Assembly (NCBI GenBank): GCA_902786855.1
Contig: CADAEH010000017.1
Coordinates: forward strand, 1-42,858
Direction: 5' to 3'
DNA: 42,858 nt
DNA from: an uncultured Eubacteriales bacterium
Lineage (GTDB): Bacteria; Bacillota; Clostridia; Peptostreptococcales; Anaerovoracaceae
Every line of letters begins with the position of its first letter. The first letter of the stretch is position 1. The position numbers and the translations under genes are program-made. Positions 23,151 to 42,418 of this stretch are shown here, piece by piece. Under the pieces are notes generated by a model. That model did not search any database and was not told the DNA's origin. It saw only the letters and a list, made by a program, of their open reading frames with translations.

Positions 23151-23912
23151 ATGAAAAAATTTCTTATCGCAGGTAACTGGAAAATGAATAAGCTTACTGC
23201 TGAAGCAGCTGCTTTTGCTAAGGAGCTTAAAGCGAAGAACTTCTCAAATGCAGATGAAGTAGCTGTACTTGTGCCTTTTACACAGCTTACTGCTGTTGGC
23301 GAGGGCCTTGCCGGAAGCGGTATCGGCTTTGGAGCTCAGAATGTTCACTTTGAAAAATCCGGAGCGTTCACAGGTGAGATATCTGTACCGATGCTCGAAG
23401 AGATAGGCGTCAACTATTGTATAGTCGGACACTCCGAGAGACGTGAATATTTCGGCGAGACTGATGAAACTGTCAATGCCAAGCTCAAAGCTCTGATCGA
23501 AGCAGGTATAACACCTATACTCTGTGTTGGTGAATCTCTTGCGGTCAGAGAAGCACAGGGCGAGCAGACATTCGTAGCCGGTCAGCTTGTAGCTGATTTC
23601 AATGGACTGACACGTGAAGGTGCAGGCAAAGTTGTCATTGCTTATGAACCTATCTGGGCTATCGGGACAGGCAAAACAGCTACCCCTGAGCAGGCAGAAG
23701 AGATGTGTGCCTTCATAAGAGGAGTTATCGGCGGTCTGTATGATAATGATCTTGCTGACAAAATGCTTATCCTTTACGGCGGCAGCATGAAAGCATCTAA
23801 CGCTGCAGATCTTCTTGCAAAGCCTGATATCAACGGTGGACTTATCGGTGGTGCCAGCCTTAAGATCGATGACTTTTCAGCTATCGTAGATGCTGCAGCT
23901 CAGCTTAAATAA
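23151..23912 (+). CDS. tpiA: Triosephosphate isomerase
   Basis: Interconverts DHAP and glyceraldehyde-3-phosphate. The 253-residue protein shows the phosphate/active-site Asn-Lys of AGNWKMNK, the catalytic His in VGHSERRE, the catalytic Glu in [18 protein letters not shown] (loop 6) and the phosphate-binding GGSMKASNA and GGLIGGASL. Length is standard. AAGGGGG precedes the ATG. It is the third gene of the gap-pgk-tpiA operon; gpmI and eno, often next, are not here. Confidence 0.98.
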
Positions 23913-23933: not shown

Positions 23934-23968
23934 GTGTCATTGACACACTAAAAACAGAGTGTTATTAT
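23934..23968 (+). promoter_or_regulatory. Near-consensus promoter for secG with overlapping inverted repeat
   Basis: TTGACA (23940-23945), 17-base spacer and TATTAT (23963-23968), the best promoter match in the window. The -35 box is embedded in GTGTCA-T-TGACAC (23934-23946), a 13-base inverted repeat that could be an operator. Confidence 0.7.
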
Positions 23969-24007
23969 AAAGTGTTCGATTTTGCGGATTACAGAGTCGA
24001 ACACTTT
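23969..24007 (+). other. 5' stem-loop in the secG leader
   Basis: AAAGTGTTCGA (23969-23979) and TCGAACACTTT (23997-24007) form a perfect 11-bp stem with a 17-base loop. It begins just after the -10 box, so most or all of it would be at the very 5' end of the transcript. It could also act as a weak terminator of tpiA read-through. Confidence 0.6.
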
Positions 24008-24038
24008 AATTCTGTATTTAATAAATTTGGAGGAAGCT

Positions 24039-24272
24039 ATGCATACAGCTTTAATGATAATTCTTCTTATTTCAAGTATCATTCTTATCGTCAGCATTCT
24101 GCTGCAGTCAAGCAACAGTGACGGACTTTCAGGATCTATAGCCGGCGGAGCTGAACAGCTTTTCGGCAAGAAAAAGAGCAGAGGTTACGACTCGCTGCTT
24201 GCTAAGATAACAACTGTAGCAGCTATTATCTATATTATTGTTTCACTTGCAATAGTAGCTATTTTCAACTGA
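24039..24272 (+). CDS. secG: Protein translocase subunit SecG
   Basis: Small accessory subunit of the SecYEG channel. I start at 24039 (MHTALMIILL), with TTTGGAGG 5 bases upstream, giving 77 residues. Two membrane segments (about 3-22 and 52-75) flank the loop LLQSSNSDGLSGSIAGGAEQLFGKKKSRGYDSLLAK, shaped like the conserved SecG loop (Q-x-x-x-x-G-L-S/G, Gly-rich, LFG). It sits after gap-pgk-tpiA as in many Clostridia and has its own promoter. Confidence 0.93.
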   Translation: MHTALMIILLISSIILIVSILLQSSNSDGLSGSIAGGAEQLFGKKKSRGYDSLLAKITTVAAIIYIIVSLAIVAIFN

Positions 24273-24308: not shown

Positions 24309-26111
24309 ATGTATAAGATATTTACACTGATATGTATTCTTGTGGCTGCTCTGGTCACTGCGTTCTTCTTATCCTGGATAAGGAGCAGACGCGGAACAGG
24401 GGAAGATGCTGCAAGATTATATGGAATAATAAAAAGCAGAAATACCAACTTTTGGTCCTTTCATTATGTCTCTGTCATAGCTGCAACGATTATTGTATCC
24501 GCTGCAGTAGGGGCAGGAATCGGATGGAGCCAGGCTGCCGCTTGCCTGACGGGTGCGGTGGTCTCTTTTGCGTTGCTGTTTACAGGTTCACAGGCATTTG
24601 TTCCCGGTTCATCCGCTTCATTCAATGAAGCAGAAAACGGAGATGCACGCTCTTCTGTAAAAGCTTCTTACCGTACCGGTGCAGTTCTTGGCTTTATATT
24701 ATCTGCAATTATAACGGCTTGCTTACTTTTAGCCTTTGTGCTGATGTCGGCCGAGACTGCTATAGAAATGACCGGACCATTTGCTCTCGGTACTTCTTTG
24801 GTAGCTGTTTTACTTCATACCGGAGGAGATGTTTATTCATCCTCATATTCATTGGCTGTTTCTGCAAGAGACTTTACAGACCGCACAGGATTTTTCATAG
24901 GTGCAGGGTCTGATCTTATCGGATCTTATGTGCTTGCTGCAGCTGCAACTATCATGCTTGCTGATGTCGGAGTCGCCACGTCAGGAGTCACTTCTACTTT
25001 CACTGCAGGTACAGCAGCAAGATTTGTAATAGCAGTATATGCTGCAGGCATCATCGGATGCGCAGTCGGGGTGTTTATGCAGCATGCAGGTCTGGGAAGT
25101 GATCTGACAAAAGGAGCAGATATCGGATGCATTGCAGCGGGGATCATTACAATTGCTGTTACTGCATATTTCAGCATCAGCATGATGGAATCCATTCTGT
25201 ATGCATTTGCTGTCGGAACAGGTATCGTTGCAGGTATTCTTCTCACAGAACTTAACAGGTTCTTTGCCAATGACAGCAGGATCTATATCAATACCGGCAA
25301 GAATCTCGGCAAACATTCTGTAGTCGTTTTCAATGCCGGAAGCGGAATGATAACGACAGCTATTTCAGCTGTGATCATCCTCGTTTCTATCATCATAGCG
25401 AACAGTATGTCCGGTTTCTATGGATATGCTCTATGTACTGCCGGTCTTTGCTCGATTTTAGCAACAGTATCTGCCATATCAGGTCTTTCAACTTTAACTG
25501 CTCAGACATCGGATATCATTTCAACAAAGATACACGGAGAAGGCGAAGAAGATAAAGAAAAAATGTCAGATGCTCTGGCTGGTGTTTCAGTCAGGAACCT
25601 CAATATGTCCAACACTTACAGAGCTGCAGCTGCTTTCATGTCAGCGTTGGCATTATTCTGTGTATATGCTGTTTCCACTGATATGGAATCTATCAATATC
25701 CTGTCGGTAAGAGTCTTCTGCGGCATAATCGTAGGTACATGCAGCGCTTTTGTTCTTACAGGCATGTTGATAAGCTCAGTGAATATTACCAGCAGAGTAG
25801 CCCTGAGAGACATGGGCAGAAGCGATGACGAAACAGGAACGACAAGCTCACTGAGGGGTTCGCTTTTTCCTGCTATAATCGCTGTCCTGCTTCCTACGAT
25901 AGTCGGTTTGTTCTTTGGGCCGGCAAGTCTGGCAGGCTTCCTTGCAGCTATTATAGTGACAGGATGTTTTATCGTAAATGCATCCAATAACTCAGGCAGA
26001 TATCTCGAGAATACAGCTATCCAGTCTCTTTCTTCTGTTATAAGGCTGATCACTGTATTCTCGATCATATTCCTTCCTGTCTTTACCAGCGTTGGAGGAT
26101 TTTTATTTTAA
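24309..26111 (+). CDS. Membrane pyrophosphatase homologue lacking the catalytic motifs
   Basis: A 600-residue protein with about 15-16 membrane segments. Its landmarks run in the same order as in the H+/Na+-translocating pyrophosphatase HppA: SVKASYRTGAVLGF (116-129; HppA ALKVAFRGGAVMG), a GGDVY...GAGSDLIGSYV block (172-208; HppA GGGIYTKAADVGADL...AGMGADLFESYV), LTELNRFFANDSR (312-324), SDALAGVSVRNLNMSNTYRA (420-439; HppA TDALDAVGNTTAAIGKG), and PAIIAVLLPTIVGLFFGP (521-538) with VTGCFIVNASNNSGRYLEN. The residues that bind Mg-pyrophosphate are gone: the TKAADVGAD segment reads SSSYSLAVS, the DDPRNPATIADNVGDNVGD stretch is deleted, and the last [20 protein letters not shown] loop is also deleted. 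It cannot plausibly hydrolyse pyrophosphate by the known mechanism. The frame is intact and the upstream site weak. It is 36 bases after secG. Confidence 0.8.
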   Translation: MYKIFTLICILVAALVTAFFLSWIRSRRGTGEDAARLYGIIKSRNTNFWSFHYVSVIAATIIVSAAVGAGIGWSQAAACLTGAVVSFALLFTGSQAFVPGSSASFNEAENGDARSSVKASYRTGAVLGFILSAIITACLLLAFVLMSAETAIEMTGPFALGTSLVAVLLHTGGDVYSSSYSLAVSARDFTDRTGFFIGAGSDLIGSYVLAAAATIMLADVGVATSGVTSTFTAGTAARFVIAVYAAGIIGCAVGVFMQHAGLGSDLTKGADIGCIAAGIITIAVTAYFSISMMESILYAFAVGTGIVAGILLTELNRFFANDSRIYINTGKNLGKHSVVVFNAGSGMITTAISAVIILVSIIIANSMSGFYGYALCTAGLCSILATVSAISGLSTLTAQTSDIISTKIHGEGEEDKEKMSDALAGVSVRNLNMSNTYRAAAAFMSALALFCVYAVSTDMESINILSVRVFCGIIVGTCSAFVLTGMLISSVNITSRVALRDMGRSDDETGTTSSLRGSLFPAIIAVLLPTIVGLFFGPASLAGFLAAIIVTGCFIVNASNNSGRYLENTAIQSLSSVIRLITVFSIIFLPVFTSVGGFLF

Positions 26112-26121
26112 TAAAATCCTG

Positions 26122-26184
26122 AAGGAGCATGCATCGGTATATAACAGATTACAAGGCGGCTCCTTTCAAGGGTGCCGCTTTTTT
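26122..26184 (+). terminator. Terminator/possible attenuator upstream of buk
   Basis: GCGGC (26156-26160) pairs with GCCGC (26174-26178), with flanking A/G-U pairs and a following TTTTTTC: a rho-independent terminator ending only about 20 bases before the buk ATG. An upstream AAGGAGC (26122-26128) can pair perfectly with GCTCCTT (26159-26165), which would sequester part of the terminator stem, the layout of an antiterminator. Ligand and mechanism unknown. Confidence 0.55.
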
Positions 26185-26203
26185 CATTAACAAGGGGAGA
26201 ATC

Positions 26204-27295
26204 ATGAAAGACTATACTTACAAGATTTTTGTTATCAATCCGGGTTCAACATCTACTAAGTTAGCTCTTTTTGAAGATCACAACAAAGTGTTTGAGACTA
26301 CTGTTACTCATGATGCATCAGTGCTGAATTCATTTCCTACCTGCAATGATCAGCTTGAGTACAGAATGGGCTTTATCACAGAGTTTATAAGAGAAAACAA
26401 GATTGATCTGACGGATGTAGATGCTTTCGTAGGAAGGGGAGGCGGATGCTATCCGGTTCCTTCCGGGACTTATGAAGTCAATGCTCTTCTTATACATGAT
26501 ATCCGAAACAATGTAGGTCGAACGATACATCCTTCCATCCTCGGAGTACAGCTTGCGTATGAGATGCAGAGAAAATACGGTGGCAGGCTCTTTATGGTCG
26601 ATCCGATCTGTGTTGATGAATATACTGATGTTGCAAGGATAACCGGTGTAAAAGGTCTTACAAGAAAGGCAGAATCTCATGCACTTAACCTGAGAGGTAC
26701 TGCAATGAAACATTGCAAGCAGCATGGGATCGATTTCAAAAAGACAAATCTTGTAGTAGCTCATGTCGATGGTGGAATAACTATCGCTGCATTTGACTGT
26801 GGAAGGCAGGTAGACTGTAATCAGGGAGCAGGAGGAGAAGGCCCTTTTACGGCAACAAGGACCGGATCGCTTCCATTGATGGAAGTCCTTGATTATTTCA
26901 AAACGCACACTGTAAATGAGATGCGCCATCTGTGTACCGGCACCGGAGGATTCGTCTCACACTTCGGTACATCCAATGCAGATGAAATATTTTCGAGAGC
27001 AAAATCAGGTGATAAAGAGGCTGCTATTGTATGGGAAGCTCTCGGTTACAACATCGTGAAATACATCGGTTCAATGGCTACTGTTTTGAAAGGAAATCTC
27101 GAAGGTATCCTGATCACAGGCAGATATACAAGATTCACTGAACTTATGGATTATATAAAAGATTATGTCGGATGGATCGCACCGGTATATATCTATGAAA
27201 ATGAAGTTGAACAGGAAGCGATGTGCGCAGGTGCGCTGCGCGTCCTCAGCGGAAAGGAAACATCAAAAATATATACCGGAAAAGGTATGGTCTGA
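26204..27295 (+). CDS. buk: Butyrate kinase
   Basis: Acetate/propionate/butyrate kinase family enzyme that makes ATP and butyrate from butyryl-phosphate (or activates short/branched acids in reverse). I start at 26204 (MKDYTYKIFVINPGSTSTK), with AAGGGGAG 6-7 bases upstream; an in-frame ATG at 26129 has AAGGAG only one base away. The 363-residue protein has the N-terminal phosphate-binding NPGSTSTKLALF, GRGGGCYPVPSG, HVDGGITIAAF, and GAGGEGPFTATRTGSLP, all diagnostic of Buk rather than AckA. The usual partner ptb is not adjacent. Expression must pass or bypass the terminator just upstream. Confidence 0.94.
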   Translation: MKDYTYKIFVINPGSTSTKLALFEDHNKVFETTVTHDASVLNSFPTCNDQLEYRMGFITEFIRENKIDLTDVDAFVGRGGGCYPVPSGTYEVNALLIHDIRNNVGRTIHPSILGVQLAYEMQRKYGGRLFMVDPICVDEYTDVARITGVKGLTRKAESHALNLRGTAMKHCKQHGIDFKKTNLVVAHVDGGITIAAFDCGRQVDCNQGAGGEGPFTATRTGSLPLMEVLDYFKTHTVNEMRHLCTGTGGFVSHFGTSNADEIFSRAKSGDKEAAIVWEALGYNIVKYIGSMATVLKGNLEGILITGRYTRFTELMDYIKDYVGWIAPVYIYENEVEQEAMCAGALRVLSGKETSKIYTGKGMV

Positions 27296-42070: not shown

Positions 42071-42418
42071 ACGGGTAGACCAGACGATCGCGTGTCTTAA
42101 GGCATGAGGAAAGTCCGGGCTCCGCAGGGCAAGGATGACGGATAACGTCCGCCGCAGGTAACTGTAGGGAAAGTGCAACAGAAACATTCCGCCGAAACGG
42201 GTAATGCCGTGGTAAGGTTGAAATGGTGAGGTAAGAGCTCACCGGCGTCATGGAGACATGACGGCCGTGTAAACCCCATCCGGAGCAAGACTAAGAAGGG
42301 CATTTGGTGGTGCGGCCCGTACCCGCCCGAAGGTAAGTCGCATGACGCTGAGAGCAATCTCAGTGCTAGATGGATGATCGCCAAATACAGAACCCGGCTT
42401 ATGGTCTGCCCGATTCTT
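42071..42418 (+). ncRNA. rnpB: RNase P RNA, class A
   Basis: Catalytic RNA that cuts the 5' leaders of tRNA precursors. CR I is GAGGAAAGTCCGGGCTCC (about 42105-42122), CR V is ACAGAACCCGGCTTATGG near 42388-42405, and ACAGAAACATTCCGCC, GTAAACCCCATCCGGAGCAAGA and CTGAGAGCAATCTCAG are also typical. The P1 helix pairs CGGGTAGACCA (42072-42082) with TGGTCTGCCCG (42402-42412). The layout is the ancestral class A form rather than Bacillus class B. Ends are inferred from P1. Confidence 0.96.

Follow-up and report, generated by a model that had tools for sequence, protein, structure and literature searches.

The stretch of DNA analysed here (the window; 42,858 nucleotides of contig CADAEH010000017.1, assembly GCA_902786855.1, from an uncultured Eubacteriales bacterium of the family Anaerovoracaceae) carries, next to secG, a gene whose product is homologous over most of its length to the membrane pyrophosphatases (mPPases; HppA, H_PPase, PF03030), the Na+/H+-pumping enzymes of which TmPPase and VrPPase are examples. 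As judged from comparisons of its sequence and its gene neighbourhood with those of relatives, the encoded protein is almost certainly a pseudoenzyme of the mPPase family that is kept by purifying selection. A preliminary description of the same DNA had proposed an mPPase homologue with its catalytic loops removed and its fold maintained for another role, and the features on which that proposal rested are taken up below.

Membership in the family is supported by several kinds of profile. The window protein matches the Pfam H_PPase model with 118.5 bits (E = 4.8e-34, cut-off 29.7), and the mPPase paralogue of the same genome scores 902 bits. The NCBIfam equivalog models, which describe a working ion-translocating pyrophosphatase, place it far under every listed mPPase cut-off (best score 133.8 bits, cut-off 546), and one NCBIfam mPPase model covers residues 3-565. 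Matches in the PDB include the plant H+-PPase 6afw (E = 6.8e-15) and Thermotoga 4av3 (E = 4.4e-6), and with a 19-row family profile (A2) the E value against solved mPPases reaches 1e-54. The six HppA landmarks quoted previously are all present in the translation and in the stated order. Sixteen hydrophobic segments are in register with those of mPPases, the raw list of hydropathy peaks having 25 entries since adjacent peaks split, so that the sixteen were assigned with the help of the alignment. The AlphaFold2 model, for which the input consisted of the window protein and three homologues only, is too poor to support a fold, with a mean predicted local distance difference test score of 35.3 and a predicted TM-score of 0.32.

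What the protein lacks is the hydrolytic centre, defined here as 16 residues of transmembrane helices (TM) 5, 6, 11, 12, 15 and 16. Residue classes and numbering are taken from sections of PMC6882861, supplemented by sections of PMC5150537 and PMC10897367; N12.53, as printed in the first of these, was taken as the Asn of GNTT, which is 12.43 by that review's own 12.50. Enzymes are called active or active-type where the catalytic residues are present, which is a prediction from sequence. When the protein is aligned with 19 active-type mPPases, it has another sequence in place of the TM5 motif TKAADVGAD, loop 5-6 is 20 residues short between residues 182 and 183 (between GGDVY and GAGSDL), and about 33 columns of loop 15-16, including the 20-residue motif quoted earlier, are absent after residue 568, before the last helix. 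These three losses had been noticed from the sequence alone; the deletion of loop 13-14 had not been mentioned. The wider statement that every pyrophosphate site is lacking holds for 15 of the 16 hydrolytic residues, which are not kept exactly, but it has to be narrowed for D6.39, which is retained as Asp191, and for D15.61, which is conservatively replaced by Glu567. By comparison, 25 named residues, hydrolytic and others, are identical in all 27 active-type rows compared.

The same degenerate form, hereafter the pseudo form, is present in 42 of the 48 genus genomes analysed, and its residues were counted over 42 aligned rows (41 at C-terminal sites). The window protein keeps 1/16 of the hydrolytic residues, the mean over 22 pseudo rows being 0.13, and D6.43, D11.57, N12.43, K15.64, D16.31, D16.35, K16.38 and D16.39 are gone in all rows or in all but one or two. 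One protein, P_L047 (G047), keeps the length of loop 5-6 with its motifs gone and loop 15-16 deleted, and looks like a transitional form. D6.39 is kept in 40 of 42 rows and position 15.61 is acidic in 37 of 41, a persistence that might be expected if the protein had remained an mPPase by means of a reconstructed active site, hydrolysing pyrophosphate (PPi) or a related molecule. This is most improbable, since the window protein is without the water-activating D6.43 and D16.39, the lysines of TM5 and TM16, and the catalytic loops, the roles of which are described in sections of PMC6882861 and PMC5150537. Changes in the cytoplasmic cavity, namely D11.50 to Arg in 27/41 rows and A12.46 to Asp in 22/41, together with Lys or Arg retained at 12.50 in 38/41, would suit a transporter that uses the emptied cavity for a substrate not handled by mPPases, such as an organic anion or phosphate. 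The window protein, however, has Ser, Leu and Asn at positions 11.50, 12.46 and 12.50, and the other degenerate copies inspected (see below) are without the changes at 11.50 and 12.46. The changes therefore do not form a common binding site, and a new substrate appears unlikely.

The position of the gene within the genome is equally characteristic. The slot has the order gapA-pgk-tpiA-secG-X, where X is an active-type mPPase in relatives. For convenience, the active-type enzyme beside secG is labelled type II, and the full-scoring mPPase found elsewhere in the window's own genome (G000:C2) type I; the gene of the latter lies on a separate contig near a gene that is predicted, from its open reading frame (ORF), to be pyruvate phosphate dikinase-like (L080). 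The search for orthologues next to secG that had been suggested found secG upstream and on the same strand in 40 of the 42 pseudo loci, with gaps between matches of 4-92 bp, mostly below 50; at the remaining two (L010, L012) the sequence is cut off. The buk gene follows in 39/42 loci, with L044 cut off there and L041 and L045 without it. Outside the genus, secG adjoins the active-type gene in 14 of 15 type II loci inspected (L081-L093, L096, L097); in L088 secG is on the other side of the gene, and L082 is cut by a contig end. By its spread outside the genus the linkage between secG and mPPase is old, and no paper on it was found in the open-licence PubMed Central literature.

The six genomes of the genus without the pseudo form are of several kinds. 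Two have an active-type enzyme after secG (G005, G035), and G032 has an active-type enzyme beside pheS, where runs of N hide secG. G011 shows a type I mPPase only, and G020 and G037 show no mPPase. A fusion of 2063 residues in G032 (G032:C118; L063, L077) was dismissed as an artefact of reading through scaffold N runs, its readable part being an active-type mPPase. G041 combines the pseudo form with a type I enzyme and, on a small contig (G041:C72, L049), part of a type II sequence, which represents either contamination or a third gene. The features of the window are collected in table 1.

Table 1. Features of the pseudo-mPPase locus and of its surroundings in the window
Feature	Position	Strand	Remarks
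Pseudo-mPPase coding sequence (H_PPase homologue without hydrolytic centre)	24309..26111	+	600 residues, ATG start, no internal stop
Loop 5-6 gap (DDPRNP region), 20 residues missing, between residues 182/183	24852..24857	+	Alignment
D191 = D6.39, sole hydrolytic-centre residue kept exactly	24879..24881	+	Asp in 40/42 pseudo rows
D202 = D6.50, ion-gate aspartate	24912..24914	+	Acidic in 42/42 pseudo rows; Asp in four other degenerate copies inspected
Residues 222-232 (VATSGVTSTFT), periplasmic loop 6-7	24972..25004	+	5/18 clade-specific conserved positions
Missing TM15-16 catalytic stretch, between residues 568/569	26010..26015	+	Alignment
R579 = K16.50 ion-gate position	26043..26045	+	Lys in 36, Arg in 1, of 41 pseudo rows
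secG, 77 residues, 36 bp upstream of the pseudo-mPPase gene	24039..24272	+	
tpiA, conserved upstream neighbour	23151..23912	+	gapA and pgk before tpiA
Butyrate-kinase-like gene (buk), downstream neighbour	26204..27295	+	Predicted, named from ORF reading
Promoter-like site before secG, TTGACA-17-TATTAT	23940..23968	+	11/12, consensus match only
17-pair hairpin with T-rich tail, tpiA/secG interval	23968..24008	+	Folding z -5.6
Terminator-like hairpin and T run 3' of the pseudo-mPPase gene	26153..26187	+	Folding z -4.7; not flagged by pattern scan, stretch chosen by eye and then folded
Bacterial RNase P RNA class A, full length	42072..42416	+	280.7 bits

The trees place the pseudo form among the enzymes of the slot. 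In the protein tree (29 of the 42 pseudo rows, with fragments and near-duplicates omitted, 21 type II and 6 type I sequences; a quick method, with a warning of long branches), the pseudo clade lies on one side of a branch with a Shimodaira-Hasegawa-like approximate likelihood ratio test (SH-aLRT) value of 100, nested among type II enzymes of the same genus. In a tree of six neighbour genes from 32 genomes, those with less than 20% of the columns having been dropped, all 23 genomes with the pseudo form group together in a single clade (100/100), to which G035, G005 and G032 are sisters. Because the slot is the same and the pseudo clade is nested among active-type enzymes, these comparisons show that a secG-linked mPPase, predicted to have been active, lost its hydrolytic centre in place and once, in an ancestor shared by most of the species sampled in the genus. 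Type II enzymes such as those of G005, G035 and G051 occupy the same gene slot and are, by the tree, of the ancestral type; unlike the window protein, they keep all 25 named residues.

Loss of catalysis has not been followed by loss of the gene. Over the available sequence the frame is unbroken in 41 of the 42 copies, which span 23-62% identity, three of the 41 (L010, L012, L044) being cut by contig ends; 26 columns are invariant over 19 diverse rows. The only broken copy (G007/RUG321; L035, G007:C155) has a frame break near the N-terminus, real or an assembly error, and another, P_L048 (G013), is cut down to 503 codons. By the method of Nei and Gojobori (NG86), the ratio of nonsynonymous to synonymous change (dN/dS, omega) is 0.040-0.188, with a median of 0.067, in all 55 pairs of pseudo sequences that are 80% identical or more; dS is below 1.2 in 31 of the pairs and near saturation in many, and the pairs share branches and are non-independent. 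The median for type I is 0.045 over 45 pairs. Between the window protein and its near relatives L005 and L006, dN is 0.29 with dS 2.3 and 1.9. When the window's own genome (G000) is compared with G036, the pseudo proteins are 61% identical and the type I proteins 94%. These values indicate that the pseudo form is evolving faster than type I yet is strongly constrained.

The faster divergence, the one frame break and the one shortened copy could also be seen as the slow decay of a redundant gene whose ORF is a relic under erosion. Such decay is very unlikely, given the unbroken frames at so wide a range of identity, the omega values far below one in every pair, the invariant columns, and the retention of degenerate copies in four independent lineages (see below). 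A pseudogene is therefore not indicated by the one broken homologue in 42, the open frame in the window and the low median omega, and the active-type ancestry, lost catalytic residues, unbroken frame and purifying selection are those of a pseudoenzyme. The earlier view that the gene, with its intact frame and no premature stop, is maintained and not decaying is borne out, as are the profile match and the low dN/dS that had been named as ways of checking it.

Degenerate copies were also sought in the family by a profile search of 119 genomes followed by inspection of loci, and those described here are among the matches listed. In G794 (L112) the open frame runs to 607 codons, or 584 when counted from the first ATG; the encoded protein lacks loops 5-6 and 15-16, and its loop 13-14 is shortened. 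The copy in G729 (L113) has 650 residues and no loop 5-6. In G819 and G752 (L114, L115) the length is kept, with the changes D6.39 to Lys, D6.43 to Gly, K12.50 to Arg, D15.61 to Asn and K16.38 to Arg; these two keep 9/16 hydrolytic residues, and their inactivity is therefore the least certain. All of them lie in the same secG-linked slot. An intact mPPase is present elsewhere in the genomes of G729 and G752, G819 shows the degenerate copy only, and no intact mPPase was seen in the G794 genome, which is 99% complete and 1% contaminated. Between G819 and G752, at 68% identity, synonymous change is saturated and thus no omega could be obtained.

Several lines of evidence bear on whether these losses were separate. 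In a neighbour-gene tree of 25 genomes four changes are forced by starred branches (bootstrap 5-95% range 4-4), and the approximately unbiased (AU) test rejects a single clade of the genus copies with G729 (p = 0.006) or with G752/G819 (p = 0.003). The G794 protein falls within the pseudo clade, at the end of a very long branch (2.58, support 91/49), but by its neighbour genes the genome belongs with G051 (99/98*), which has an active-type enzyme in the slot, and after removal of the pseudo rows the protein stands beside the G051 enzyme with weak support (38). A horizontal origin of this copy was rejected, since the neighbours place the genome with G051, against the position in the protein tree; the copy is read, short of proof, as an independent loss drawn to the pseudo clade by long-branch attraction. 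It is thus very probable that, in the same slot, catalytic residues were also lost in no fewer than three further lineages of the family, each time independently.

Some further matches are recorded here in their own right. In genus g5, the best PF03030 matches of five genomes (G827, G829, G831, G832, G833) reach only 1e-20 to 1e-45, with nine congeners at 4e-278 or better; the weak matches may be fragments, or else additional degenerate mPPases in genomes that have no intact one. Other genomes with weak scores are G840, G846, G898 and G927. On one 5.5 Mb contig (G215:C1), in a genome marked 11% contaminated, five mPPase genes score as full-length. In G229 (G229:C1:1947621-1947866) the last 82 H_PPase positions (TM15-16) are matched in isolation within a 424-codon frame, apart from the full mPPase of that genome, and four mPPases (G048:C75, G793:C313, G777:C46, G755:C48; 583-599 bits) lie in unusually long frames of 811-832 codons.

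The repeated retention of such copies encourages us to ask what the protein does. Because degenerate copies were repeatedly retained, the function appears separable from PPi hydrolysis, and we infer that the secG-linked mPPase had a function without need of hydrolysis that was inherited by the pseudo form. Of the 48 genomes of the genus, 43 carry a family II pyrophosphatase domain (DHHA2), and the removal of PPi therefore need not depend on the lost mPPase activity; family I pyrophosphatase is found in none of the 48. The best DHHA2 match is mostly in a frame of 538-569 codons, a length that fits enzymes of the CBS-regulated type. The hydrolysis-free function could have been kept once other PPi-hydrolysing enzymes had removed the need for the catalytic part. 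In a protein without the capping loops, the funnel on the cytoplasmic side would lead to the gate at the membrane centre (D6.50, S/T6.54, the acid at 6.53 and K/R16.50), which would open passively or by another signal instead of being driven by PPi. Such a PPi-independent cation conduit is a tentative choice of mechanism, although the most likely of those considered.

The conduit comes first because the gate residues are kept above background. The gate set (S5.43, D6.50, E6.53, S6.54, D/N16.46, K16.50) follows sections of PMC6882861. In the pseudo rows position 6.50 is acidic in 42/42, S/T6.54 is kept in 38/42, S5.43 in 34/42, E6.53 in 31/42 and K/R16.50 in 37/41; in the four rows where K16.50 has become uncharged, E6.53 is missing too. 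Exact matches number 2-5 of 6 in nine pseudo rows and 3-6 of 6 in the copies of G794, G729, G819 and G752. Background was taken from 236 columns invariant in 27 active-type rows, with one representative per lineage (P_L016, L112, L113, L114). In a pooled test that treats positions and lineages as independent, 18/24 gate positions are retained versus 60/176 other invariant polar (p = 2e-4), 16/64 hydrolytic (p = 4e-5) and 244/536 apolar positions (p = 0.006). When the window protein represents the genus, the values are 17/24 and 58/176 for gate and other polar positions (p = 5e-4). Taken singly, the same comparison gives p = 0.007 for G794, 0.075 for G819, 0.044 for P_L016 and 0.11 for the window protein.

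A number of observations weigh against a conduit. N16.46 is kept in only 4/41 pseudo rows and is Gly in 25/41. The window protein has three of six gate residues exact, with E6.53 changed to Gly, N16.46 to Ser and K16.50 to Arg, and L045 and L046 keep two of six. G729 alone (3/6, p = 0.40) is not significant, and the independence assumed in the pooled test is itself a weakness. The inner-ring helices of the pseudo clade are no more conserved than the outer ones (0.436 vs 0.432, 23 rows; type II, 0.86 vs 0.71, 8 rows) and therefore do not behave as an intact ion path predicts. Finally, 18 positions are conserved in the pseudo clade but unfixed in type II, and five of them fall in the 11 residues 222-232 out of 600 (hypergeometric p = 5.6e-6, for a region picked after the data had been seen); this strongest new conservation, in the periplasmic loop 6-7, suits a binding role equally.

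On these grounds, the loss of inner-ring constraint and the new periplasmic constraint, a membrane scaffold or partner protein is a close second. Such a protein would dimerise with itself, with an intact mPPase or with a neighbour such as the Sec translocon, binding through loop 6-7 and passing no ions; it is a serious but still doubtful candidate. The mPPases are homodimers with inter-subunit coupling, as described in sections of PMC10897367, and the adjacency to secG is of long standing. The promoter-like site and the hairpins listed in table 1 are consistent with a candidate joint transcript of secG and the pseudo-mPPase gene. Yet this adjacency was inherited from the active-type enzyme and says little on the new role, for which reason a Sec-related function was not adopted, and the gate charges are kept above background. 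An obligate heterodimer with an intact mPPase is disfavoured by G794 and by five of the 42 pseudo-bearing genomes of the genus in which none is seen (G001, G010, G031, G038, G044); missing sequence could explain these five, of which G044 (96% complete) and G031 (93%) are the 2 among 17 pseudo-bearing genomes at least 90% complete.

Taken as a whole, the best explanation is that of an in-place pseudoenzyme, arisen recurrently and now serving as a PPi-free ion conduit, a combination that we put forward provisionally. A bolder form, in which the secG-linked pump was turned at least four separate times into a PPi-free channel or exchanger, so that the active form would always have had a second, hydrolysis-independent job, is conceivable but rather doubtful. 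No report of a catalytically dead mPPase was found in the open-licence PubMed Central literature, as judged by titles and the starts of abstracts; PMC3189178 and PMC4153887 mention hppA and a pseudogene, and in the sections concerned the pseudogenes are other genes. The mPPases are treated as single-purpose primary pumps, and a clade that has discarded the hydrolytic half while retaining the half in the membrane amounts to an experiment of nature in separation of function. Together with its parallels in sister lineages, it makes two ideas testable: conduction through the gate without PPi, and a second role of the secG-linked pump. In addition, genes called ion-translocating pyrophosphatase from a Pfam match alone may encode dead enzymes.

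Comparison with known systems brings out what is particular to the window protein. To the mPPases proper it is alike in the sixteen hydrophobic segments assigned to it, its gate aspartate and its gene slot beside secG, and unlike in the absent hydrolytic centre and loops 5-6, 13-14 and 15-16. With bacterial pseudoenzymes, such as pseudokinases, it shares the lost catalysis, the purifying selection and, as predicted from sequence, the conserved fold, and it differs from them in general as a derivative of a primary ion pump. CFTR is a channel that has the fold of a pump. By analogy, the window protein would share with it the proposed logic of a gated conduit derived from an energy-driven transporter; CFTR, however, keeps its nucleotide gating, whereas in the window protein the energy domain is deleted and conductance is a proposal.
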